Of a DNA stretch of 64,000 nt, positions 37,512 to 50,254 are shown piece after piece. Source of the stretch: Hungatella sp. (lineage in GTDB: Bacteria > Bacillota > Clostridia > Lachnospirales > Lachnospiraceae); NCBI GenBank assembly GCA_022792815.1, contig JAAWBS010000035.1, forward strand, positions 1 to 64,000, given 5' to 3'. The notes under the pieces are model-generated. The model saw only the letters and a program-made list of their open reading frames with translations. It was not told the origin of the DNA and did not search any database. Within the stretch, counting starts at the first letter, position 1. Every line of letters starts with the position of its first letter. The position numbers were made by a program, and so were the translations under genes.

Positions 37512-38318
37512 CTATTCATACATCTGCATCATCTCATTATACAGATCCAAAAACTCAGGGTGTGACAGAAGATATCCCCAGTAAACGGTCATGAGGACGC
37601 TGACGAGGATGGAGAGGATCCCCAGCACAAGTCCGACTACGGCAAAACCGGAAAACGGCTGTCCCTTCCTGGACAAAATTGCCAGCACGATGGCTATCAT
37701 GGCCAGAGGAAACTGAATAAAGGGAATACAGCATCCCAGCAGAGAGAAGATTCCCACGATCATGGATGCCATAGCCATGTTGTTGTGGGGCTTGGGCGGC
37801 TGTCCGTAAGGCGGGTAGTTCTGCCAGTTCTGCTGATTCTGCTGCCCGTAAGGAGATTGCTGCCAGTTCTGCCGGTTCTGCTGCCCATATGGGTCCTGCT
37901 GCCAATTCTGTGGATTTTGCTGTCCGTAAGGCGGTTGCTGCCAGTTCTGCTGATTCTGCTGTCCGTAAGGCGGTTGCTGCCAGTTCTGCTGATTCTGCTG
38001 TCCGTAAGGCGGTTGCTGCCGGTTCTGCTGATTCTGCTGTCCGTAAGGCGGGTAGTTCTGCCAGTTCTGTTGATTCTGCTGTCCATAGGGTGGCTGCTGC
38101 CGGTTCTGCTGTCCATAAGGCTGCTGTTGTTCCTGTTCTCCGGATTGATTTTCCCCTGAGTGAAGGATGGGGGGATCCTGGTGCTCATTCATTGGCATAT
38201 TCTGTGGAGAAGCCGGAAGTTCCGGAGACTGTCCCCCATTCTGATTATTATTATCGAGAGGGTCCGACATCATGGTCTGCTCCCCGGAAGAATCGTTTTG
38301 ATCGCGGTAATCGTCCAT
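37512..38318 (-). CDS. DUF4190 membrane protein with Q/N-rich tandem-repeat N-terminus
   Basis: The 268-residue protein has a low-complexity hydrophilic region (about 1-180). Its core is about nine tandem units of the type YGQQNQQNWQQPP, rich in Gln, Asn, Tyr and Pro. Two membrane helices follow (about 182-213 and 220-248, with the CC-containing run IVGIFSLLGCCIPF), typical of DUF4190 proteins. The repeat arm should be disordered and has prion-like composition. The DNA repeats are about 39-42 bp and probably change in number between strains. It is divergent from the TIR gene and shares a leader motif with the zinc-ribbon gene at 47474. Confidence 0.8.
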   Translation of the reverse strand: MDDYRDQNDSSGEQTMMSDPLDNNNQNGGQSPELPASPQNMPMNEHQDPPILHSGENQSGEQEQQQPYGQQNRQQPPYGQQNQQNWQNYPPYGQQNQQNRQQPPYGQQNQQNWQQPPYGQQNQQNWQQPPYGQQNPQNWQQDPYGQQNRQNWQQSPYGQQNQQNWQNYPPYGQPPKPHNNMAMASMIVGIFSLLGCCIPFIQFPLAMIAIVLAILSRKGQPFSGFAVVGLVLGILSILVSVLMTVYWGYLLSHPEFLDLYNEMMQMYE

Positions 38319-38436: not shown

Positions 38437-38562
38437 ACGAAAAATATTGTAACACGAAAAATCACTGATGTCCACAACTCTTTCCCGTTTTAACAGAACA
38501 GAGGGCCGGTACAGCTGTGGAACCAAATAAGGTCAGCAGCCAGGTTCTTTATCCTCTTTCCA

Positions 38563-38591
38563 TTTACATTCCGCACAATCATTGCTATAAT
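38563..38591 (+). promoter_or_regulatory. SigmaA-type promoter of the TIR gene
   Basis: TTTACA (38563-38568), a 17-bp spacer and a consensus TATAAT (38586-38591). Transcription near 38598 rules out in-frame ATGs at 38517 and 38592 and fixes the start at 38631. Confidence 0.75.
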
Positions 38592-38630: not shown

Positions 38631-41606
38631 ATGGATGAAAAAGTGTTTATCAGCTACAGCAGAAAAGACACTGACTGGGCGGACAGGATCAAAGCCACCT
38701 TGGAATCCAACGGAGTCAGCTGCTGGATGGACCGCGCGGGGATCAATGCGGGTGAGAAGTACACCAGAGAGATCATCAATGCCATCAAGCGCTGCGATGT
38801 GTTCCTTCTGGTCCTGTCTCCCAATGCGGAGCGGTCGGAGTGGGTTCCCAAGGAGCTTGGCAAGGCCATCCAGTACCGCAAGTACATTATACCGGTAAAG
38901 ATTACGGACTTTGAAGTGGAGGAATTTGAACTTCAGCTGGAAAATATCCAGATCTTTGAGCTGGACAATCTGTCGGAGATCCAGACTCAGATCAATCTGG
39001 TCAATACTGTAAAAAGTGTTTTGCAGCTGAAACCGGTGGACCGTCAGTCCTACACCCGGATCCCTGACGAACCGTCACACGGACCGGCAAAAGGGACAAG
39101 TCCCTCCAAAACATCCTTTGCCAGTAAGAAAAGGAACTTTCTCTTCGGAGGCCTGCTTGCGGCCGTGCTGGCTGTGGGGATTCTGTCAGGCTGGCTGCTG
39201 TTAGGAAAAAGGGACCGGGATGCAGGAGCAGACCCGGAGAGTCAGACCATAGTATCCGCCGAAGGAGAGACGGAGGACTCCGGCGAGGAGAGGAGAGACG
39301 GCAAAGAAAGCGGGGATTCCGAGAAGACAGGGAAACAGGCGGAAGATAATTCTGACGGGGAGAACAAAGAGGCACCGACGCGACCCGGGAAAGCCGAGGA
39401 GTCCGGCATTCTCTCAGACGCGGAGACGGAACTGTGCACGCTCCATGTGATGAATTCCGTCAATGCCGCAATCAGTGAAAAGGTGACCAATTCCGCCGGA
39501 CAGACTTTTGATCAGGCGGTGTCAGGCAAGGGGAACTACTCCCAATGCCTTGCGACGTTCTATCTGGGCGGCAGCTATGGCCGGTTTATCGGAACCATAA
39601 GTTGTCCTGATGACGTGGGCAATGCAGGTACCTGGCGGTTTTTGGTGTGGCTGGATGAAGAGAAAGACGATCCGGTGATGGAATTGAAACTGGGACGTTC
39701 CACGCCTCCGACTCTTCTGGATATCGATGTCACCGGCCACGACACCATCACGTTCTGGGCGGAAAGCGGATCCGGGGATACCGGCTTTGTCGTCTCTGAC
39801 GGCTGGCTGTACGGTACAGAAGGGCAGGCTCCGCAGACTGCGGGTGTGGACAACACTACATCCTCCCGGGATGCCCTGCTTACCTCTCAGCACCTGATGA
39901 ACTCTATCAATGCGGAGATTAAGAAGAAGGCGGTCAATTCTGCCGGTCAGACCTTTGATCAGGCAGTGACGGCCAAGGGGCGGTATTCCCAGAGTCTTGC
40001 GGCCTTTTATCTGGGCAGCAGCTACAGTCGATTTGTGGGAACCTTGAGCTGTCCTGATGATGTCTCCGGAGCCAATTCCTGGAATTACAAGATATGGCTG
40101 GATGAAGACAAAGATGATCCGGTGATGGAGGGAACCATGAGCCGTTCTATGCCCCCTACGCTTGTGGATCTGGATGTCACCGGTCACAACACGATCACGT
40201 TCTGGGTGGAGGAGAAGAGCTGGGATACGGGATTTATGATCTCGGATGCCATCATGTACAAACCCGATGACCCTGCTCCGGCGGAGGTATCCGTGGATCA
40301 TACCGCCACTGCAATAGAGGGAGACCTTACCTCCATGCATCTGATGAATGCTCTCAATGCCCGCATCGACGAAAAGGTGACCAATTCCGCCGGCCAGACT
40401 TTTCCCAGGGCAGTGACGGCCAAGGGCCGATACAGCGCCAGCCTGGCAGCGTTCTATCTGGGCGGAGGATACAGCCGGTTTGTGGGCACCTTAAGCTGCC
40501 CCGAAGACGTCTCTGGGGCCAATACCTGGAATTACAAGATATGGCTGGATGAAGAGAAAGACGATCCGGTGATGGAGGGAACCATGAGCCGTTCCACGCC
40601 GCCTACGCTTTTAGATCTGGATGTCACGGGCCATGACACCATCACCTTCTGGGTGGAGGAGAAGAGCTGGGATACGGGATTTATGATCTCGGATGCCATC
40701 TTGTACGAGCCTGGGGATTCCCCTCCCGAGGCTCCTGAAGTGGACCGTACCATACCGGCAGACAGCGGAGAGCTGACCGTGCAGCATCTGATGAATCACA
40801 TTAACGGAGAGATCAGAAAGAAGGCCGTCAACACGGCCGGTCAGACCTTTCCTCAGGCGGTGGCGGTAAAGGGACGTTACACAAAAAGCTTCACTACCTT
40901 TTATCTTGGGGATAACTTCACCCGTTTCATCGGAACCTTAAGCTGTCCCGACGATTTGGCGTATAATGGTGGTTATTCATTTAAAGTGTGGCTGGATGGC
41001 GAGGAAGAAGAGCCGGTGATTGACATGACTATGAGCCGCGCCACGCCGCCGACTCTTCTGGATATTGACGTCACCGGTCACGAGACCATTACCTTTTGGA
41101 CAGAGGAGAGCAGCCACGACACAGGTTTTATGATCTCGGATGCATGGCTGTACCGTTCCACTGACCAGATTCCGGAGTCTCCTTCTGCGGATAACTCCAT
41201 AGCAGCGGCGGATACCAACCTAACTTCTCAGCATATGATGATTTACAGCGGCACCGGTATGGTAAAGAAGGCCGTAAACTCCGCGGGTCAGACCTTTGAC
41301 CAGGCCGTAGTGGCCCAGGGGCGTTATGCGGTGAACCAGGCCACATTCTATCTGGGCCATAACTACAGCCGGTTGACGGGAACGATTTCCTGTCCGGATC
41401 AGATCTCACACGCCAAGAATTTTGTAGTTAAAATCTGGCTGGACGACGAAAAAGACGAACCGGTGCGGGAGTTTACCATGAGCCGCTCTATGGCACCCGA
41501 AGCCCTTGACATCGATGTCACCGGCCACGAGACCATTACGTTTTGGGCGGAAGAGGCCTCCCAGGATACAGGCTTTCTCATCTCCGACGGGATCCTGATC
41601 CCATAA
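38631..41606 (+). CDS. TIR domain - transmembrane - five NPCBM-like repeats
   Basis: The 991-residue protein starts at MDEKVFISYSRKDTDW. Residues 2-135 form a TIR domain with FISYSRKD, SCWMDRAGINAGEKY and LLVLSPNAERSEWVPKEL. The W71-x3-E75 motif supplies the Glu that is catalytic in NAD-cleaving bacterial TIRs. One membrane helix (about 168-190) and an acidic Ser/Glu/Asp linker (to about 260) follow. Five repeats of about 148 residues begin near 265, 416, 564, 713 and 861. Each has SAGQTFDQAV, FYLG-x2-YSRF-x-GT-x-SCP, KIWLDEEKDDPV and DIDVTGHDTITFW. These look like NPCBM carbohydrate-binding domains. The topology resembles a Toll receptor in reverse: TIR inside, ligand-binding repeats outside. 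Enzyme activity and ligand are inferred. Confidence 0.8.
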   Translation: MDEKVFISYSRKDTDWADRIKATLESNGVSCWMDRAGINAGEKYTREIINAIKRCDVFLLVLSPNAERSEWVPKELGKAIQYRKYIIPVKITDFEVEEFELQLENIQIFELDNLSEIQTQINLVNTVKSVLQLKPVDRQSYTRIPDEPSHGPAKGTSPSKTSFASKKRNFLFGGLLAAVLAVGILSGWLLLGKRDRDAGADPESQTIVSAEGETEDSGEERRDGKESGDSEKTGKQAEDNSDGENKEAPTRPGKAEESGILSDAETELCTLHVMNSVNAAISEKVTNSAGQTFDQAVSGKGNYSQCLATFYLGGSYGRFIGTISCPDDVGNAGTWRFLVWLDEEKDDPVMELKLGRSTPPTLLDIDVTGHDTITFWAESGSGDTGFVVSDGWLYGTEGQAPQTAGVDNTTSSRDALLTSQHLMNSINAEIKKKAVNSAGQTFDQAVTAKGRYSQSLAAFYLGSSYSRFVGTLSCPDDVSGANSWNYKIWLDEDKDDPVMEGTMSRSMPPTLVDLDVTGHNTITFWVEEKSWDTGFMISDAIMYKPDDPAPAEVSVDHTATAIEGDLTSMHLMNALNARIDEKVTNSAGQTFPRAVTAKGRYSASLAAFYLGGGYSRFVGTLSCPEDVSGANTWNYKIWLDEEKDDPVMEGTMSRSTPPTLLDLDVTGHDTITFWVEEKSWDTGFMISDAILYEPGDSPPEAPEVDRTIPADSGELTVQHLMNHINGEIRKKAVNTAGQTFPQAVAVKGRYTKSFTTFYLGDNFTRFIGTLSCPDDLAYNGGYSFKVWLDGEEEEPVIDMTMSRATPPTLLDIDVTGHETITFWTEESSHDTGFMISDAWLYRSTDQIPESPSADNSIAAADTNLTSQHMMIYSGTGMVKKAVNSAGQTFDQAVVAQGRYAVNQATFYLGHNYSRLTGTISCPDQISHAKNFVVKIWLDDEKDEPVREFTMSRSMAPEALDIDVTGHETITFWAEEASQDTGFLISDGILIP

Positions 41607-41660: not shown

Positions 41661-43220
41661 TCAGGATTCCTGTTCCTCCTGGCACAAGGTGTAGATTCTG
41701 GAAAAAATGTCTTTTTTTACGATATACAGATCCCTCGGATCGTCTTTTCTGGCCACCAGATAGTCTTCTTTTTCTCCGAGCATATATTTTTCCTTATCCC
41801 ACTGGGTGAAGAGTTTGGTGCGCCGGTCAAGGCGGCGAGCGTATACCTTGGAGATGTCCCTGGAGATACAGGTTTTGGCATAGGGGATCAGGGGCCGGTT
41901 TTCCCCGGTAACCGTGTTGCGGACGGTGGGCTGGTATTCTCCCCGGAAATCATAAGGCTCCTCTGATGTCTCATAATTTTTCTTCACATTCTCCAGCCGG
42001 CTGGGATAGATCTCATGATCGATTCCGATCATGATACAAAGCCCTGCCTCCACCGTAATCTCCACGTCACCTTCCAGCATGCGCACCAGAATTTCCGTTC
42101 CCGCCGGGAAGATATCCTCAGCCCGGGCATATCCGACAGAAATGGGGTTTTTCTGATAAATCTTCATATCAGAGAGAGTGAGGCGATAGCAGTCCGTGTC
42201 TATGATCTCCTCTTCGCCGAAATAGGTCTCCAGGCGGGAGCGGAGGATCCGGTGGGCGGCGTCTATGGTTCGGACAGACCCCAGGGCACCTAACTCTTTC
42301 TCATAGACCTTCTTTAAACGGGCCCCGTCCAGAAATCCGCCTGCCTTCATCACATGTCCGCCTGCGGAGCCGATCTCTCTTGACACAAAGGAGGCCAGAT
42401 CATCTGCCCGTGCCTCCTTCACACAGCTTCGGACAGACATCTTTACATTGTCACCCAGCATACAGAAGGCGATGCAGGTATTCACCACATCCACCTCGAT
42501 CAGCATGTCGCTGATGATTCCCAGGATATTGGGATCACAGGGCTCCGATTTCACCAGGGCAAATTTCTGTTTTTCGCTGTAGTCATAGCTGGCCAGAGCC
42601 TCACTGGCGATCCTCAGCTCCTCCAGGGATAAGTTGGTATTCTGGAAATGGATGACGGCGCTCTTGTCGATCTTTAACTCGTCCCGCATGTCTTTGTCCA
42701 TGGGATGGGAAATCTCCTGAAGGCGGTTGGTATCCATGTACAGCCCGTAGTAAAGGGCAGTGGCCAGCTTTCTGTTTTGGTTTACGTCATAGCCGGCCTC
42801 TGTCAGCATGTACCAGACGATGGTGGAGCATGCGCCGTAGTTGCTGTGTATCTTACAGAGAGAGGGCAGGGCTTCGGGGCAGGAGATCTGGTGGTGGTCT
42901 ATGACAGCCAGATTTTTCCCCCCAAACTTCTGTACATTACCCTGGCCGTACTGACAGTCAATGGTCAGGAGAAGCTCCGGTTCCTCTAGGGTCTCAACGT
43001 GTTCAATGGGAATATCAAATTTATCTTTTAAAAGAACCAGATTGCTTTTTTGGATCACCTGTTTGCCGCCGTACAGAAGCCTGGGATTTTTTCCATGTTC
43101 CTTCAGATAGGTATAGATTCCGTATCCGCTGGCGATGGCATCCGCATCCGGGTTATCGTGGCACTGAATTGCGATGTCATCATATTGGAGCAGATCCCCC
43201 AGTCTCAGATTCATGTACAT
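41661..43220 (-). CDS. DHH-family phosphoesterase with C-terminal extension
   Basis: The 519-residue protein starts at the first ATG, with AAAGGAGG seven bases upstream. The DHH core is clear: CHDNPDADAIASGYG (about 19-33), LTIDCQYGQGN, AVIDHHQ and YGLYMDTNR. A DHHA1-like region near 290-330 carries GSAGGHVMKAGGF. NrnA-type enzymes of this class degrade nano-RNA, pAp or linear cyclic-dinucleotide products, but are only about 320 residues long. The extra 180 residues here are unexplained. It overlaps the upstream RyR gene by 10 bp, so the two are co-translated. Confidence 0.82.
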   Translation of the reverse strand: MYMNLRLGDLLQYDDIAIQCHDNPDADAIASGYGIYTYLKEHGKNPRLLYGGKQVIQKSNLVLLKDKFDIPIEHVETLEEPELLLTIDCQYGQGNVQKFGGKNLAVIDHHQISCPEALPSLCKIHSNYGACSTIVWYMLTEAGYDVNQNRKLATALYYGLYMDTNRLQEISHPMDKDMRDELKIDKSAVIHFQNTNLSLEELRIASEALASYDYSEKQKFALVKSEPCDPNILGIISDMLIEVDVVNTCIAFCMLGDNVKMSVRSCVKEARADDLASFVSREIGSAGGHVMKAGGFLDGARLKKVYEKELGALGSVRTIDAAHRILRSRLETYFGEEEIIDTDCYRLTLSDMKIYQKNPISVGYARAEDIFPAGTEILVRMLEGDVEITVEAGLCIMIGIDHEIYPSRLENVKKNYETSEEPYDFRGEYQPTVRNTVTGENRPLIPYAKTCISRDISKVYARRLDRRTKLFTQWDKEKYMLGEKEDYLVARKDDPRDLYIVKKDIFSRIYTLCQEEQES

Positions 43221-43516
43221 GATGATTCCTCCTTTGGTATAATCCGGTATCCCAGTTTCCAGATCAGCTTGATGGTCTCAAGAGCCGTGCTGCGGTCATA
43301 AAGTTTCTCTTCCTCCGGCAGCTGATCATAGGGAACCAGGCATGGGGTTTCCTTTTTCTCGTCGTCCCGGACCGGACCATAGTTCCAGCCTTGACGGATC
43401 CGCTGCAAAGCCCAGTTTTCATGGACATTCTCCGCCAGCTTTTCCGCCAGTTCCTCAATGTAGTCCGGCAGGTCAACCATGGAGGTGTCTGTGGGAATAG
43501 GTTTATAAGGGTTCAT
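43211..43516 (-). CDS. RyR-domain protein
   Basis: The 101-residue protein is essentially one ryanodine-receptor (RyR) repeat. It reads YKPIPTDTSMVDLP, then ENVHENWALQRIRQGWNYGP, DDEKKETPCLVPYDQLPEEE and YDRSTALETIKLIWKLGY, matching the family from end to end. Bacterial RyR domains have been proposed to sense nucleotide-derived ligands. Here the gene is coupled to a DHH phosphoesterase and converges on a TIR gene, which fits that idea. The ligand is unknown. GGGAGGCGG precedes the ATG on the minus strand. Confidence 0.82.
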   Translation of the reverse strand: MNPYKPIPTDTSMVDLPDYIEELAEKLAENVHENWALQRIRQGWNYGPVRDDEKKETPCLVPYDQLPEEEKLYDRSTALETIKLIWKLGYRIIPKEESSCT

Positions 43517-44121: not shown

Positions 44122-45060
44122 ATGTTTTGTCCAAACTGCGGAAAAGAAATAAAAGACAATGTAAAATTTTGTCCTATATGCGGAGAAGCGACGGGAAAGA
44201 AGCCTGCAGGGGATCATAAGAAGGGGGTCATGCCTTTGGGAGCCAACCAGAAGTTATCCGTGAAGATCCCTGCGGCAAAGATCCCTGCGGTGAAACTTCC
44301 GACAGCCCAATCTGCCTCCCGCACTCTGCCGCTGAAAGAACCCAGGAAACTGGTGCTTCCCCTGGCAGCCGTTGTATTGGTCCTGATTCTCATTTCGGGG
44401 ATCAGCTTTTTGATGAAGCCAAGGCTGAAAGACGAAAAGGCGAAAGAGATCGTAGCCCAGTATTTCGAGACTCATGAGGAGTATGAAGAAAGCGAGGATC
44501 AGTACAGAGAATGCTTCCGGTATATGGTAAATGACCTGACCAGACAGCTTTCCAGTAACCTGTCGTCTGTTTTAAGCAGTTTTGTGGATACCAGAAAAGT
44601 GGACGTAAACGCCATGTCTCAGGACATCGGAAGCATGCTTTCCGACTATTTTTCCAATGACTCCAACCAGATTACGCTCGGTGAGGCCGTGATCGCGGAG
44701 GCTGAGTATGAGGTGGGGGAAGTGGTGAAAAAAGACGGGGTCGTGAGTGTGGAGGTCACGGTGACAGGCCTGAATATCGGGGAAGTGAACCGGCAGCTGA
44801 TCTCCGACTCTGTCAGCGGCCAGGGACTGGCGAACCTTGTCATAAAACTTGCCGGCGGAGGGCTTCTGGGAAGTGTGGCAGATGTGGCCGGAGGAGACAT
44901 TTCTTTTCTGCTGGACGGATTTGTCAGGAAGGCCAAAAACGTGGACGAAAAAAACACCTGCACAGGAACCATAGAATTTGAATACAACAAAAAGACGAAA
45001 GAGTGGGAGATCAGCCGTGCAGACTCGAAACTTTTGGATACCTACTTTGGAATAGACTGA
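44122..45060 (+). CDS. Zinc-ribbon membrane protein with exterior domain
   Basis: The 312-residue protein starts MFCPNCGKEIKDNVKFCPIC, a four-cysteine zinc ribbon. A basic Pro/Ala/Lys linker and one membrane helix (about 76-98) follow, then an exterior domain of about 210 residues without a family I can name. The exterior part begins with an acidic helix (EEYEESEDQYREC) and has a GGGLLGSVADVAGG stretch. AAGGAGGAAAAGGAG precedes the ATG. It is the first of four zinc-ribbon genes in a row. Confidence 0.75.
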   Translation: MFCPNCGKEIKDNVKFCPICGEATGKKPAGDHKKGVMPLGANQKLSVKIPAAKIPAVKLPTAQSASRTLPLKEPRKLVLPLAAVVLVLILISGISFLMKPRLKDEKAKEIVAQYFETHEEYEESEDQYRECFRYMVNDLTRQLSSNLSSVLSSFVDTRKVDVNAMSQDIGSMLSDYFSNDSNQITLGEAVIAEAEYEVGEVVKKDGVVSVEVTVTGLNIGEVNRQLISDSVSGQGLANLVIKLAGGGLLGSVADVAGGDISFLLDGFVRKAKNVDEKNTCTGTIEFEYNKKTKEWEISRADSKLLDTYFGID

Positions 45061-45078
45061 TGATGAGGAGGAGAGACG

Positions 45079-45495
45079 ATGGGATTACTAGACACATTAC
45101 AGGGAAAGGGAACCGGTGCGGCAGGACAATTTGATCTGCAGATCGCGGAGACGGAGCGGCTTTTGAAGGAGGAATACGCGGCAGTAGGGGAGATCTTTTT
45201 AAAACGAAGCGGGAACAACTTTGAGAGAGAATACATACCCCACGTCAATGAAGTGAAGAAGCTGACGGAACAGAAAAAGACTTTGGAGAGGAATAAACTG
45301 GCAGCTCAGGGACTGCGCCTGTGTGAGAGCTGCAGCCAGACCATCCCCTTGGACAGCGTTTTCTGCAATAAGTGCGGAGCGAAGATGGAACCATTTGTGG
45401 TCTCGACAGCAGGGGGAAGATTCTGCCCGTCCTGCGGTGCTCCCATAGAAAAGGGCAATACATTCTGCAGCGAGTGCGGAGCGAAATTAGGCTGA
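45079..45495 (+). CDS. Small double zinc-ribbon protein
   Basis: The 138-residue soluble protein has an N-terminal helical, charged region (about 15-75, likely coiled coil). Two zinc ribbons follow: CESCSQTIPLDSVFCNKCG near 76-94 and CPSCGAPIEKGNTFCSECG near 116-134. No membrane segment is seen. It lies 18 bp after the preceding gene. It may be a cytoplasmic adaptor that contacts the zinc ribbons of its membrane-bound neighbours, which is inference. Confidence 0.75.
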   Translation: MGLLDTLQGKGTGAAGQFDLQIAETERLLKEEYAAVGEIFLKRSGNNFEREYIPHVNEVKKLTEQKKTLERNKLAAQGLRLCESCSQTIPLDSVFCNKCGAKMEPFVVSTAGGRFCPSCGAPIEKGNTFCSECGAKLG

Positions 45496-45514
45496 TCATA
45501 CCAGGAGGAGAACT

Positions 45515-47152
45515 ATGTTTTGTGGAAATTGCGGAAAAGAAATTTCGGGAAAAAACGGGGTCTGCGAATTCTGCGGAGCTGCGTTTGCAGGAAACGGAAA
45601 TACACAGGAGAGCAGCAAGGAGCCTCTGTCTCAGTCGCCTTTGCCGTCTAAGGTCCGGGGGAAAAAGAAGATACTGGCTGTGGCTGCGGCCGTCGTGTGT
45701 GTGGCGGTCGGGGCTCTGGCCTTCGCCGCGTTTCGTCTGGCAGGAAGTCCGAAACAGAAAGTCCTTATAGGAGCGGCAAAGACCGTGAAAGCGGGAATCA
45801 TGGGAGATACCACACTGGTGGGGGTCCTGGGGCTGGACCAGATGATCGAGGAGATCCAGAAAGGAAATACGGCCCAGATTTTTGAGATGAATTACCCGGA
45901 AGGGGGAACGGGGATACGGGTTCAGGCTTTTCTTGATCAGAAGAAAGGCGTATCCCGCACGGAGATTTCTCCCACCATAAGAAATATGGACCTGACAGAG
46001 TTTATTCTCTATAAGAAGGAGAATCTTCTGCATTTCGGTCTGCCGGATGTTCTGGACGATGTGTATTATGTGGACCTGTCCAACCTTCAGGGCGAGTATT
46101 CCGGCTCTGCGCTGGACCGGTTGATTCAGGAAGAGACCGGCATGCGCCTGGAACATGTTCTGCCCGGGGACATGACTGCCAAAGAGACCCATTCCTATCT
46201 GAAAAGCTGCCAGGAAGAGCTGGGAGCCCTCTATGACAGCATGGAGGTGGAAAAAGACGGAACCGAGACCATCCGCATCGGCGGCAAGAGCCAGAAATGC
46301 GGCAAATACCATGTGATCATTTCCGGCAGCAGTGTAAAAGACCTTCTGTCGGCGTCTCTGGACTATCTCGAGGAACAACAGGGAATGTATGTGTTTATGG
46401 GAGAAAGTCTGATCGACGAGTATGATACCATATACTGGCTGAAAAAGGAGGTGCTGCCCAGGCTTAAGTTTCGGGATCTCGACATGACGGTATGTCTGGA
46501 CAAGAAAGGCCGTCTGGTGTCCTTAAAGGGCGAGTGGAGTGTGACTGCAGGAGGTCTTCCCGAGCCGATAAAACTGGAATATGAAGGCACATTTACCGGA
46601 GGTGCCAGCCCTCTGGACAAGATCAGGGGAGTGCTTCTGATCTCCTCCGATGGACAGGAGTATGAATTTACTTTTGAGCGGGATAAACAATTTCAGAAAA
46701 AGTCCAGTCTGAAGGATCATATGGATCTGACGATTGTAGAGCTATACGGGAATTCTACCTTTACCTACCCGTTCTCCTATGAGTTTTCCTATAATCTCAC
46801 CAACGGTAAGTGGGATGCCGCCCTGGTTAAGACGGATACCGGAACTCAGCTTTTGGGAGAGGGTAAGATCTCGGATGTGGAGAAAGGCAAGGAATTAAGC
46901 ATCACTTTGGATCAGATGATCGATCCATGGAACAATTACTATGAAGGTTCCTATAAACTGACCGCTCTGGAAAAGGAAGGCGTCAGCCCTCTGGATGGGA
47001 TTGAGAAAGGCATATCCCTTTTTGACATGAGCAGATCGGAGCTGGTGGGAGTAGGTGAGGATCTGTCCGAATGGATGGACCGGATGTCGGGAGATTCTTA
47101 TTATGGTGGTTCGTCCGTACCTGAGGAGACGACCGCAGATGAAGATGACTGA
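45515..47152 (+). CDS. Zinc-ribbon membrane protein with large exterior domain
   Basis: The 545-residue protein starts MFCGNCGKEISGKNGVCEFC, then has a short Ser-rich linker, a membrane helix (about 49-71) and an exterior region of about 470 residues. That region includes repeated segments resembling lipoprotein-like or DUF-type beta structure (KLEYEGTFTGGASPLDKI, and LTALEKEGVSPLDGI near the end). The tail is Gly/Ser/acidic. The family is not recognised, but it shares its layout with the genes at 44122 and 47474. AGGAGG precedes the ATG. Confidence 0.75.
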   Translation: MFCGNCGKEISGKNGVCEFCGAAFAGNGNTQESSKEPLSQSPLPSKVRGKKKILAVAAAVVCVAVGALAFAAFRLAGSPKQKVLIGAAKTVKAGIMGDTTLVGVLGLDQMIEEIQKGNTAQIFEMNYPEGGTGIRVQAFLDQKKGVSRTEISPTIRNMDLTEFILYKKENLLHFGLPDVLDDVYYVDLSNLQGEYSGSALDRLIQEETGMRLEHVLPGDMTAKETHSYLKSCQEELGALYDSMEVEKDGTETIRIGGKSQKCGKYHVIISGSSVKDLLSASLDYLEEQQGMYVFMGESLIDEYDTIYWLKKEVLPRLKFRDLDMTVCLDKKGRLVSLKGEWSVTAGGLPEPIKLEYEGTFTGGASPLDKIRGVLLISSDGQEYEFTFERDKQFQKKSSLKDHMDLTIVELYGNSTFTYPFSYEFSYNLTNGKWDAALVKTDTGTQLLGEGKISDVEKGKELSITLDQMIDPWNNYYEGSYKLTALEKEGVSPLDGIEKGISLFDMSRSELVGVGEDLSEWMDRMSGDSYYGGSSVPEETTADEDD

Positions 47153-47473
47153 CATCAGAGAGACATAGAGCCTTGTGAAAGCCTAAGTTGAGAGAATATT
47201 CTGAGAATATATTCCGTACAAAGCCTTCGTACACCGGGCATTCCACTGAGAAATGTCACCAACCGCCAGGTTGATGACCTGCGTGCGCATCAGCGCACTT
47301 CCGCTGAACCCAATAGAACAAAAAACACTCGGGCAGAGGTCCCTCCTGTTTTTTATGGTCTCAGCTCCATGGTGTAATGGCTTTTCCTGGAACATATTGT
47401 CAGAATATTCAGCCAAGTTTTGAGTTTCGCAAATGCCTAAAGAGGGACAGCAGGAAAGGAGCAGATAAAAGCT
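47153..47473. other. Hairpin-rich intergenic stretch
   Basis: No gene is supported here. It contains several small perfect hairpins (CAGGT/ACCTG and GTGCGC/GCGCAC near 47271-47296), two T-rich runs, GAGAATATTC-type sequences near 47190-47210 and the shared leader motif at 47403-47434. A minus-strand frame (47183-47416) has a protein-like end (MRTQVINLAVGDISQW) but no match I know. Confidence 0.4.
47403..47434 (+). promoter_or_regulatory. Shared leader motif, copy 2
   Basis: GAATATTC, four bases, then AAGTTTTGAGTTTCGCAAAT, 39 bp before the start of the zinc-ribbon gene at 47474. The 20-mer is identical to that in the DUF4190 leader on the minus strand at 38370-38351, with the same spacing to GAATATTC. 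The following CAGGAAAGGAG is also shared. Confidence 0.55.
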
Positions 47474-50254
47474 ATGAATACATGTACAAACTGCGGTTTT
47501 GAAAATCCGGAGGGCGCCGTTTTCTGCGGAGAGTGCGGAGCGGCTCTCGGACAGACAAAAGCGCCGCAGGATGCCGGTCAGCCGCAGTGTGTGCAGCCGG
47601 AAGAAATCGGAGGTTCCGGATCGGATTTGGGACAGCAGGAGTCATCTGTCGGTTTCCGGGGAGAACCTGCGCAGACGCAAGAGGATGATTCCCTGCCGCA
47701 GCTGCCTTTGCCGGAGCCCGTCTCCTATGAACGGAGCAAAAGATCCGGGGCAGTCGGCATTCTTCTGAAGGCGATGGGGATAACGATCCTGGCCGGAATC
47801 TGCTTTGCCGCCGGAGGTATGGCGAGAAAGATGGTTCCGGCTGCTGCCCGTACCGCCGCTCTGAGAATTCATCATGACAGCGAACCGGGGGCTGCTGCTG
47901 TCTGCTATGATGCCGAGGGGTACAGCGATATCGGCAAGGTCACGGTGACAGGTCATCAGGGGAAGGTATTGGACACGGCAGACCAGGTAAAAGAAGGGTG
48001 TTACCGGTGGATTGCCTCCTGTCAGTCTCTGGTCTACCTGGACTCCCAGGGAGATCTGTATGTGAAGGCTGTGGGCGGGGAGGCAGTTCGGCTGGCACAG
48101 CAGACAGACTGGTCTTCTCTGAATCCGAAAATAAGTGATGACGGGAGACTTCTTGTTTACCGGGATTTGTCCGGGGAAGAGGAGAGGAAGACCGTATATG
48201 ATCTGAAGGCGGGCGAAGAGATGGCAGTGCTGGAGATGGGAGAGCACATGCCATATTATGACGCAGACAGCGGTATTCTTTATTACATCAACTCAGACAG
48301 CACCCTGACTGCCATAGATGATTCCGGCGAAAACCAGAGGGTTAAGGGGGATATCTCTGACTTTAAGGTACAGGACGGAGTTGTTTTCTGCAATACTGTC
48401 TCAGGGGAAAAAAGTTACGTGATCGGAGCGGAGACAGAGATTTCCCTTGACGGGTATAACCAGAGCGCATTTGGAGTATTGAACCGGGATCAGTATGTGG
48501 TCCTCCTGACGGATAGACAGTCAGGAGACCAGCAGCTTGTCATGTGTGTCCCCGGCCTGGAGCCGGCGGTGCTGGACCGAGGCCCTCTGTCAGGGTGGAG
48601 AAGCAGCTTCACAGACATGAATGATGCGATGGAGTATATGGTCTACGCAGAGGCAAGCAGCCGTATCTACTATGTAAAAAACGGTTCTTTATACTATATG
48701 GTCATCCCGGAACTGGATGAAAAGGCCCTGTCCGATCAGCAGCGTTTTGAGGAGGCCGTTGATGTGATCAAAGAAAAACTGGCTTCCGGCATCAGGGAAT
48801 GGGATATGCCCGCCATGGAGAAAGCCGGGGACATCATGGAGGGGGAGAAAGCCGCGGCGCTCTCGTTTCAATGCAGCCCTAACGGAGAAAACCTGGCATG
48901 GATTAACTCGAGAAACGAGTTGGAGTTCTATTGTCAGCCCCTTGACGGCAGCGATAAGGCAGGTGAGGAGTCTCCGGAACCTCTGACAGTGGACCGGAAC
49001 GTGCGGGATTTCCGGGTATGGGACCATTCCCTTGTGTATGTGACTGATGGATGGGAGCTTAAAAAATTGCCTCTGACTCCGGGAGTTTTTCCGGAAGATA
49101 CACAGGGCGCGGTTCTGCTCTACACCATGAAAGGTCTGGCGCAGAGCCGGACGGAGGCAGAAGGGGATCAGAACACTCAGGCTGACGAAGGCGGCAGTCA
49201 GGGATTTTTGACCAAAGGCAGTACCTATGGAGACTATGTTGCCATGGCAGATCCGTCGGACGGACTTCTGCAGGTCTTTAACAGTGAAAATGAAGTGATC
49301 ACTCTGGAGCCGCACATGGATGTCCATGACCGAGTGGATGTCTGGAGTTCTACCGTGTGGGACAGAAAGCTGACGCTGGAGGATATCGCCGGATTCTATT
49401 CCTGTGAATATGAGGCGTCTTCTTATCCGGGGACATACGGGGAGGCATTGGTGGAGATCAACTCCCAGGGGCAGTGGGATGCCATATGTTACGTGACTCT
49501 TTCTGGCAGTCCCAATGTGCATGAGCTCAAGGGAGATCTCACATGGGAGGAAAAAGATATCCATTCTCTGGAGTGGGAGCCCACCATGGATTTAGACTTG
49601 GATTTGGACAGCCTATATGACCAGATGGAATTTGAGGGCCTGGATCCAGATGAATTTGATGAAGCCTGGGAGACGTTAATGGAATCGCTAGGATTAAGGG
49701 CTTCTAATGTAAATCCCATAATTCTATATCAATTTGAAAAACTCCGGTCTGAGTTGGAAGACTCCGATCTGGAGCCGTTACGCTACCATATAGAGCTCCG
49801 GGATAACGGTTTCGTGGCCGTGGTTCTGAATAGAGAGGGCCCAGAGCTAAACCTGACCAGGGCTACAGCCGATCAGTTTGCCTATGCCAGGAAAATGTTG
49901 GAGTGGAAAGATCGGATGGAACAGGGAGCCGAGGAGAGAAGACAATATATCCAACAGGAACAGGAACGGATCCGAGAGGAAAAGAGACGGCAGGAGGAAG
50001 AGAGAAAACGGCAGGAGGAACAGCAGAAACGGCAGGCTCTGATAACGCAGGCCAGGTCTTACTATAATAATGGCGTATATCTTTCCAAGGGAACCAGGCT
50101 GTATACCACGACCAGTCTCTCTTCTGCTTCGTCCAACAAAACGGCCAAAAACGAGACCTGGGATGTATATGATTACCAGGTAGATGAGTCATCTAATCGT
50201 ATCTGGCTTAAGGTGAAAAATTCCCGCAATCAATACTTTTGGGTATACAGATAG
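47474..50254 (+). CDS. Large zinc-ribbon membrane protein with propeller-like exterior and coiled coil
   Basis: The 926-residue protein starts MNTCTNCGFENPEGAVFCGE, a four-Cys zinc ribbon. A linker and membrane helix (about 92-118) follow. The exterior region (about 130-620) has short repeated strands such as RWIASCQSLVYLDSQGDLYV and DADSGILYYINSDSTLTAI, as in DUF5050/WD40-like propellers. Then come an acidic stretch, a highly charged Gln/Glu/Arg coiled coil (about 815-860, EQERIREEKRRQEEERKRQ) and a C-terminal SH3-like segment ending YFWVYR. No enzyme motif is visible. It looks like a surface scaffold or sensor. Confidence 0.72.
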   Translation: MNTCTNCGFENPEGAVFCGECGAALGQTKAPQDAGQPQCVQPEEIGGSGSDLGQQESSVGFRGEPAQTQEDDSLPQLPLPEPVSYERSKRSGAVGILLKAMGITILAGICFAAGGMARKMVPAAARTAALRIHHDSEPGAAAVCYDAEGYSDIGKVTVTGHQGKVLDTADQVKEGCYRWIASCQSLVYLDSQGDLYVKAVGGEAVRLAQQTDWSSLNPKISDDGRLLVYRDLSGEEERKTVYDLKAGEEMAVLEMGEHMPYYDADSGILYYINSDSTLTAIDDSGENQRVKGDISDFKVQDGVVFCNTVSGEKSYVIGAETEISLDGYNQSAFGVLNRDQYVVLLTDRQSGDQQLVMCVPGLEPAVLDRGPLSGWRSSFTDMNDAMEYMVYAEASSRIYYVKNGSLYYMVIPELDEKALSDQQRFEEAVDVIKEKLASGIREWDMPAMEKAGDIMEGEKAAALSFQCSPNGENLAWINSRNELEFYCQPLDGSDKAGEESPEPLTVDRNVRDFRVWDHSLVYVTDGWELKKLPLTPGVFPEDTQGAVLLYTMKGLAQSRTEAEGDQNTQADEGGSQGFLTKGSTYGDYVAMADPSDGLLQVFNSENEVITLEPHMDVHDRVDVWSSTVWDRKLTLEDIAGFYSCEYEASSYPGTYGEALVEINSQGQWDAICYVTLSGSPNVHELKGDLTWEEKDIHSLEWEPTMDLDLDLDSLYDQMEFEGLDPDEFDEAWETLMESLGLRASNVNPIILYQFEKLRSELEDSDLEPLRYHIELRDNGFVAVVLNREGPELNLTRATADQFAYARKMLEWKDRMEQGAEERRQYIQQEQERIREEKRRQEEERKRQEEQQKRQALITQARSYYNNGVYLSKGTRLYTTTSLSSASSNKTAKNETWDVYDYQVDESSNRIWLKVKNSRNQYFWVYR

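Follow-up and report, generated by a model that had tools for sequence, protein, structure and literature searches.

A Predicted Membrane-Spanning TIR Protein with Five NPCBM-Type Repeats Adjoins an RyR-DHH Gene Pair in Hungatella sp.

The TIR-NPCBM Locus

We analyzed a stretch of 64,000 nucleotides from Hungatella sp. (GenBank assembly GCA_022792815.1, contig JAAWBS010000035.1, positions 1 to 64,000 of the forward strand; "the window" below) in which one gene encodes a TIR domain, a predicted membrane helix and five NPCBM-type repeats, and an RyR-DHH gene pair converges on it. This pair is the best functional clue at the TIR locus and was absent from the preliminary description of this DNA, which had been made from the letters alone. 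The features are as follows.

38563..38591, + strand: sigma-70-type promoter-like site, TTTACA-17-TATAAT, 11/12 matches, with TG before the second hexamer
38631..41606, + strand: TIR-membrane helix-(NPCBM)5 gene, 991 aa, from ATG 38631 to the stop at 41606
38643..38966, + strand: TIR_2 domain, residues 5-112, by Pfam profile
38841-38843 and 38853-38855, + strand: W71 and E75, within TIR_2
39135..39200, + strand: predicted single membrane helix, residues about 169-190, by hydropathy and flanking charge only
39201..39419, + strand: charged acidic linker from the helix to the first repeat, read from the sequence
39420..39821, + strand: NPCBM-type repeat 1, profile match
39867..40268, + strand: NPCBM-type repeat 2, profile match
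40314..40715, + strand: NPCBM-type repeat 3, 81% identical to repeat 2
40761..41162, + strand: NPCBM-type repeat 4, profile match
41208..41603, + strand: NPCBM-type repeat 5, running to the protein end
41661..43220, - strand: DHH-family phosphoesterase, 519 aa (PF01368, E 2.8e-14), convergent with the TIR gene across a 54-bp gap
43211..43516, - strand: RyR-domain protein, 101 aa (PF02026, E 1e-34)

The TIR-NPCBM gene lies where it had first been placed and is real: its profile scores exclude chance, as does the existence of a full-length relative in the genus. The genome that carries it (3.8 Mb, 89% complete) has no other TIR_2 match, and all five of its NPCBM matches fall in this gene. An in-frame GTG at 38517 would extend the open reading frame; ATG 38631 is the likelier start because the GTG lies upstream of the promoter-like site. 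A strong, near-consensus promoter had been described here, and one such site is indeed present, yet such sites are not in excess in the scanned 5.5-kb stretch (5 against 3.8 +/- 1.9 in shuffles).

TIR Domain and Predicted Topology

The TIR_2 match (PF13676) reached E 4.1e-25 and 89 bits against a cut-off of 28. The intact W-x3-E motif noted earlier was recovered as W71-VPK-E75, which aligns with WVHKE of the SARM1 chains, where the glutamate is catalytic. In an alignment of 27 distinct TIR domains, chosen for their resemblance to that of the window and including it, the glutamate was conserved in 27/27 and the tryptophan in 18/27. Both residues are kept in the window protein and in its relative from the genus genome G305. 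This conservation suggests that the TIR domain may be an enzyme.

A single hydrophobic helix is predicted near residues 169-190, in agreement with the one membrane helix proposed before: the best 19-residue hydropathy windows begin at 173 and 174, and all windows with a mean above 1.4 begin at 167-176. The 16 residues ahead of the helix carry a net charge of +5, against -1 for those that follow it, and the remaining 799 aa are acidic, with a net charge of -66. Because the single helix lies 170 residues in, with no N-terminal signal peptide, and because of the flanking charges and the acidic remainder, the best reading is a predicted topology with the TIR domain inside and the repeats outside; the reversed topology was considered and rejected. 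The earlier view of the protein as an outward single-pass receptor is supported in part. The same charge count on the G305 relative (0 and +1) was unhelpful, the hand-set helix limits cutting through KKK.

The NPCBM-Type Repeats

Five stretches of the protein match the NPCBM family (PF08305), together at E 4.3e-37 and 127.6 bits against a cut-off of 23.9; in a genome-wide search each of them scored 27.1-32.3 bits against the same Pfam cut-off. The preliminary description had counted five NPCBM-like repeats of 148 residues; their number and family stand, but each of the four intervals from one repeat to the next measures exactly 149 residues. A profile of the repeats compared with 13 canonical NPCBMs of related genomes gave a profile-profile probability of 94% over 91 columns, and by this measure the repeats are true but divergent NPCBMs. 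When nine repeats were aligned with these 13 canonical relatives, the canonical HA was replaced by YS and DHADW (DHADWADAK) by DTGFxISDA. Membership in the NPCBM family is therefore clear and two conserved canonical motifs are not retained, which leaves the idea of carbohydrate-binding-like repeats standing in part; glycan binding is putative, and likely by family. A search of viral contigs with the repeats found no relative.

The Neighboring RyR-DHH Pair

The RyR match (PF02026) scored 119 bits against a cut-off of 27.4. The RyR gene overlaps the start of the DHH gene by 10 bp, and the two likely form one operon. The nearest curated NCBIfam models score the DHH protein far below cut-off, and PADLOC, run on RyR, DHH and two other neighbors, gave no match at E 1e-3.

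According to the part of a May 2026 preprint consulted here (PMC13232231), phage RyR-domain proteins degrade or sequester 2'/3'cADPR, a form of cyclic ADP-ribose made by TIR proteins. Residues H32, W35 and D74 of the window RyR stand at the spacings of H75, W78 and D117 of the phage protein RyDEP (numbering from PMC13232231), a correspondence taken from the spacing and from an alignment with animal RyRs, not with RyDEP itself. The features looked for in a RyDEP-type cADPR glycosidase were its His/Asp dyad, W78 and H100. To place this pattern, we collected 16 standalone RyR genes, defined as open frames of up to 121 aa: 9 from the family sample (own included), 2 more from the genus and 5 more from the order sample, the order-level set being a replicate that was chosen with the family set already known and at a stricter E cut-off of 1e-20. 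The histidine, tryptophan and aspartate are invariant in 16/16 of these proteins; the position of H100 holds T, H, N or D.

RyR domains also occur in phages, 252 of 50,697 phage records matching at E 1e-3 or better. The nearest, in the human-gut phage records MT836850.1 and MT837259.1, are 56-58% identical to the window RyR, and an exchange of RyR genes between phage and host is possible from this likeness.

Linkage of RyR, DHH and TIR Genes

Within the genus, the DHH gene was found in 5 of 26 genomes (the window and four relatives at 43-53% identity); four further genomes gave DHH matches of only 27-31% identity. It adjoins an RyR domain in 4/5: in the window, G313 and G316 (small RyR gene) and in G312 (RyR-domain membrane protein). 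The 3' flank of the DHH gene is readable at four loci, that of G316 running to the contig end, and in three of these four (window, G305 and G313) a convergent TIR gene lies 54-72 bp away. The three TIR proteins differ, being of the types TIR-membrane helix-NPCBM, TIR-TPR and TIR-FHA and only 19-26% identical. No orthologous neighbors were recognised among these loci besides DHH, RyR and TIR, and the other matches to the window in the compared stretches are weak (at most 34% identity, for the most part to open reading frames of ABC-transporter or choline-binding type).

Two of these loci deserve description. In G313 (L121:5036-11320) a membrane-helix protein kinase, RyR, DHH and a TIR-FHA protein lie side by side, an arrangement that suggests phosphorylation-controlled TIR signaling. 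In G312 the DHH gene is in pieces on two contigs, and the RyR-domain membrane protein (668 aa, L213:1656-4103, - strand) lies 24 bp downstream of its end.

In the wider sample, a TIR gene lies within 3 kb of 7/16 standalone RyR genes (window, G313, G261, G176, G154, G028 and G553), where random placement, computed from TIR_2 counts, would give 0.09 (P 7e-13; 5e-6 if the chance rate is raised tenfold). Five of the 16 loci have less than 3 kb on one side (G316, G349, G092, G423 and G638). Without the two discovery loci, the window and G313, the count is 5/14 (P 1e-8, or 7e-4 when inflated tenfold). An accessory-locus control was made within 1.5 kb on each side, which leaves out the window's own TIR gene, 1.6 kb from RyR: TIR genes were present at 3/16 standalone RyR loci and at 5/26 loci of RyR domains in larger proteins, versus 0/29 NPCBM loci (Fisher P 0.04 and 0.02, respectively). 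RyR genes are recurrently linked with TIR genes of different kinds.

Also encoded near RyR genes are protein kinases, a PP2C phosphatase and Card1/CARF-nuclease-like proteins. A large protein with a Card1-like endonuclease at its C-terminus is encoded directly upstream of a standalone RyR gene at L122:2075-5053 (-), L156:5404-9927 (+) and L210:10151-14377 (-); the Card1-like match is above the Pfam cut-off in L122 only and below it in L156 and L210, and PADLOC CARF-nuclease matches were obtained in L122 and L210. A membrane protein family also adjoins RyR genes at L158:8148-9863 (+), L212:8210-9943 (-) and L211:8091-9902 (-), the first being 55% and 33% identical to the other two; no Pfam match was found for the L158 and L212 proteins, and we take the family, by an unchecked likeness, to resemble SLOG/SLATT. 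The survey of nucleotide-centered conflict systems by Burroughs et al. (2015) may touch on the association of RyR with TIR. We recognised no description of a bacterial RyR-TIR linkage in the literature searched, mostly by title and with most subscription papers outside its scope.

Relatives of the TIR-NPCBM Protein

A survey of the genus for the TIR-membrane helix-repeat layout, as proposed with the preliminary description, found such proteins in 4/26 genomes: the window, G305, G316 and G317. Those of G316 and G317 are cut by contig ends, have a TIR domain without the tryptophan and carry NPCBM repeats that Pfam recognises weakly or not at all, so that what links them is their likeness to the window repeats (E 1e-15 and 6e-10). 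In the family, the repeat profile matches 4/397 genomes (own included), the other three weakly (E 1e-7 to 9e-7).

Compared with the full-length G305 relative, the window protein is 84% identical in the TIR domain (114/135) and 49% in the ectodomain (288/590); the ectodomain changes faster than the TIR domain. The G305 protein has four repeats where the window protein has five. Repeats are 54-81% and 60-77% identical within a protein and 42-52% between the window and G305 proteins, and since they are more alike within than between, the array appears to be rebuilt independently within each lineage. G305 also holds a second, broken TIR-NPCBM copy elsewhere (L082:16501-17126, +), near an open reading frame that resembles, by eye, a site-specific recombinase.

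The layout had been set against the mostly soluble TIR proteins of bacteria. Membrane TIRs are not rare in the family sample, in which 22/299 genomes (own included) gave a TIR match: 6/23 other TIR loci, own gene excluded, encode a predicted membrane helix, followed by leucine-rich repeats (1), DUF6273 (2), TPR/Sel1 (2) or no confident domain (1). The protein at L089:7326-9515 (+; 729 aa), with a TIR domain, then a membrane helix, then leucine-rich repeats, is a bacterial mirror image of a Toll-like receptor. Twelve loci from a broad full-protein homologue scan, each matching only TIR residues 72-143, were dropped as chance; in a check, 9/12 reached only E 6e-4 to 8e-4, all of them a 664-aa protein without a full TIR domain. 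No relative of the TIR-NPCBM protein was found in phage records, and seven plasmid records matched by the TIR part only; a phage-borne origin of the TIR gene was considered and rejected.

Two other features of the neighborhood were recorded. Divergent from the TIR gene, at 37512-38318 (-), lies a gene for a DUF4190-like protein (match below cut-off) with Gln/Asn/Pro/Tyr-rich short repeats followed by two membrane helices. At 44122-50254 (+), near the TIR gene, four consecutive proteins are encoded; Pfam finds zinc ribbons in three of them, and three have a membrane helix. In G241 (L098), a membrane protein that is zinc-ribbon-like by eye has an NPCBM match, which hints at swapping of N-terminal modules.

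A Possible Signaling Cassette and Its Alternatives

The reading that we prefer, tentatively and at somewhat less than even confidence, is a surface TIR receptor that makes an NAD-derived signal, with RyR, perhaps together with DHH, as its off-switch. For this reading we infer the topology, the ligand, the enzymatic activity, the identity of the signal and the off-switch role. The protein would be a single-pass surface receptor with its N-terminus inside and its C-terminus outside, whose five NPCBM-type beta-sandwich domains would sense an external ligand such as a polysaccharide, a phage particle or an altered envelope. Clustering of receptors would gather the cytosolic TIR domains, which could then convert NAD+ to a nucleotide product; the probable outcome would be a signal of the cyclic ADP-ribose type, a loss of NAD+, or both. 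The RyR-DHH operon would be the terminating arm: the TIR product would be bound or hydrolysed by RyR, and the DHH phosphoesterase, as helper or effector, may act on nucleotides in a further step. An off-switch role would suit RyR because RyR stays constant while the TIR proteins and putative effectors vary, and it would resemble that of ring nucleases, which occur beside CRISPR type III effectors. A more specific proposal, which we hold to be somewhat unlikely, is a chromosomal cassette in which exchangeable TIR receptors (here a membrane-spanning lectin array) are combined with an RyR-DHH pair dedicated to erasing the cyclic ADP-ribose that TIR makes. If true, the cassette would be a cellular counterpart, perhaps the source, of the phage RyDEP anti-defense enzymes, and bacteria could use TIR signals reversibly, beyond suicide.

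Several points weigh against a TIR receptor with an RyR off-switch. The repeats have lost two conserved canonical NPCBM motifs (HA and DHADW), and in a search of the PDB their profile found no CBM51 structure, only two plastocyanin matches at E about 1; a canonical NPCBM, by contrast, finds the solved chains 2vmg and 2vmh, which we take to be CBM51. In the window RyR, T57 stands where RyDEP has H100. The TIR gene and the RyR-DHH pair are convergent and hence not one operon. G305 has DHH and TIR but no RyR at that locus, and its intact TIR-NPCBM gene sits elsewhere with neither; in G312, DHH is followed by the RyR-domain membrane protein with no TIR on that 4.1-kb contig. In the wider sample, of the 11 RyR loci that can be read on both sides, four lack a TIR gene within 3 kb (G165, G050, G677 and G681), the RyR-bearing genomes G050 and G349 are without any TIR_2 match, and the order-level replicate alone gave 1/5 with TIR (P 0.027). 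The P values, moreover, assume random placement, which accessory islands violate. Of the eight phage homologues besides RyDEP reported in the part of PMC13232231 consulted, six bound signals and none cleaved them.

This last finding bears on an unlikely alternative in which RyR-DHH is the reader and effector arm, RyR binding the TIR product and activating DHH, which would destroy nucleotides or RNA. Several phage RyR homologues bind cADPR without cleavage (PMC13232231, in part), the two window genes overlap by 10 bp, an RyR domain stands beside 4/5 close DHH genes of the genus, and DHH holds to RyR (4/5) more firmly than to TIR (3/4). However, in other genomes RyR stands next to putative effectors of other types (Card1/CARF-nuclease-like proteins or a membrane protein), as would be expected of a constant eraser, and its His/Asp pair is invariant in 16/16.

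It is distinctly unlikely that the TIR receptor acts alone and that RyR-DHH is an unrelated accessory module in a shared variable region of the genome. The convergent orientation would fit such an arrangement, as would the intact G305 relative with no RyR-DHH beside it and the DHH-RyR of G312 without TIR, and the random-placement null is too generous. Against this, the 7/16 association within 3 kb keeps a P of 5e-6 even at the tenfold inflated chance rate, and the 1.5-kb control gave 3/16 (P 0.04) and 5/26 (P 0.02) versus 0/29 NPCBM loci.

We consider it very unlikely that the TIR domain is a non-enzymatic docking module through which a surface adhesin or glycan-binding protein engages a partner in the cytosol. 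TIR domains are usually portrayed as units on which signaling complexes assemble (PMC7075850, in part), NPCBM ectodomains of the family are also found on membrane proteins with other N-termini, such as the L098 protein, and the tryptophan is missing from the G316 and G317 TIRs; yet Glu and Trp are kept in the window and G305, and the 89% complete genome offers no second TIR_2 match as a partner. That the RyR gene is a phage counter-defense gene stranded in the chromosome is hardly credible: the phage matches cited above, with the nearest two at 56-58% identity, would fit, but in three genomes RyR and DHH make up a unit of two genes, and of the 13 neighbors scanned none was recognised as a phage gene.

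Comparison with Known Systems

The bacterial TIR systems known to date are mostly one-way alarms set off from within the cell. The window TIR has profile matches to the Thoeris models ThsB and ThcB4, but it scores 46 on the ThcB4 model against a cut-off of 220 and has the layout of a membrane receptor. No Thoeris effector was found near the gene (Pfam on 13 neighbors; PADLOC on four; NCBIfam on the protein, DHH and RyR), and membership in Thoeris was rejected for lack of an adjacent effector among the neighbors scanned. The CBM51/NPCBM modules of known structure (2vmg and 2vmh) belong to the same Pfam family as the window repeats, which have YS and DTGFxISDA in place of the canonical HA and DHADW.

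Frequent fusions of NPCBM to TIR and to kinases are described in the part consulted of Kaur et al. 2021 (PMC8195603). They belong to systems that are predicted to sense invaders within the cell, that are found predominantly in multicellular Actinobacteria and that lie close to AP-ATPase/caspase genes. The window protein shares the NPCBM-TIR fusion and the predicted invader sensing, but it has a predicted membrane helix and a five-fold array, and unlike those systems it has no NTPase or caspase among the 13 window neighbors scanned with Pfam. The TIR-NPCBM fusion itself is already published, and the membrane-spanning array is a variant of it; neither such an array nor an RyR-DHH partner of TIR was found in the literature searched.

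The window RyR shares PF02026 and the equally spaced His, Trp and Asp with the RyDEP phage proteins (PMC13232231, in part), but it is chromosomal, paired with a DHH gene and adjacent to a TIR gene, with T at the H100 position. With animal Toll-like receptors, as described in the part of PMC7075850 consulted, the protein shares a predicted single-pass layout with a cytosolic TIR domain; it differs in its reversed order (TIR N-terminal), in having NPCBM for leucine-rich repeats and in lacking the RDxxPG box 2. An outward-facing TIR receptor, if true, would widen what TIR systems can sense. A chromosomal off-switch, if true, would explain the safe expression of such receptors and give the phage enzymes a cellular origin, and it would touch the long-standing question of whether the RyR domain of animal channels encounters cyclic ADP-ribose.

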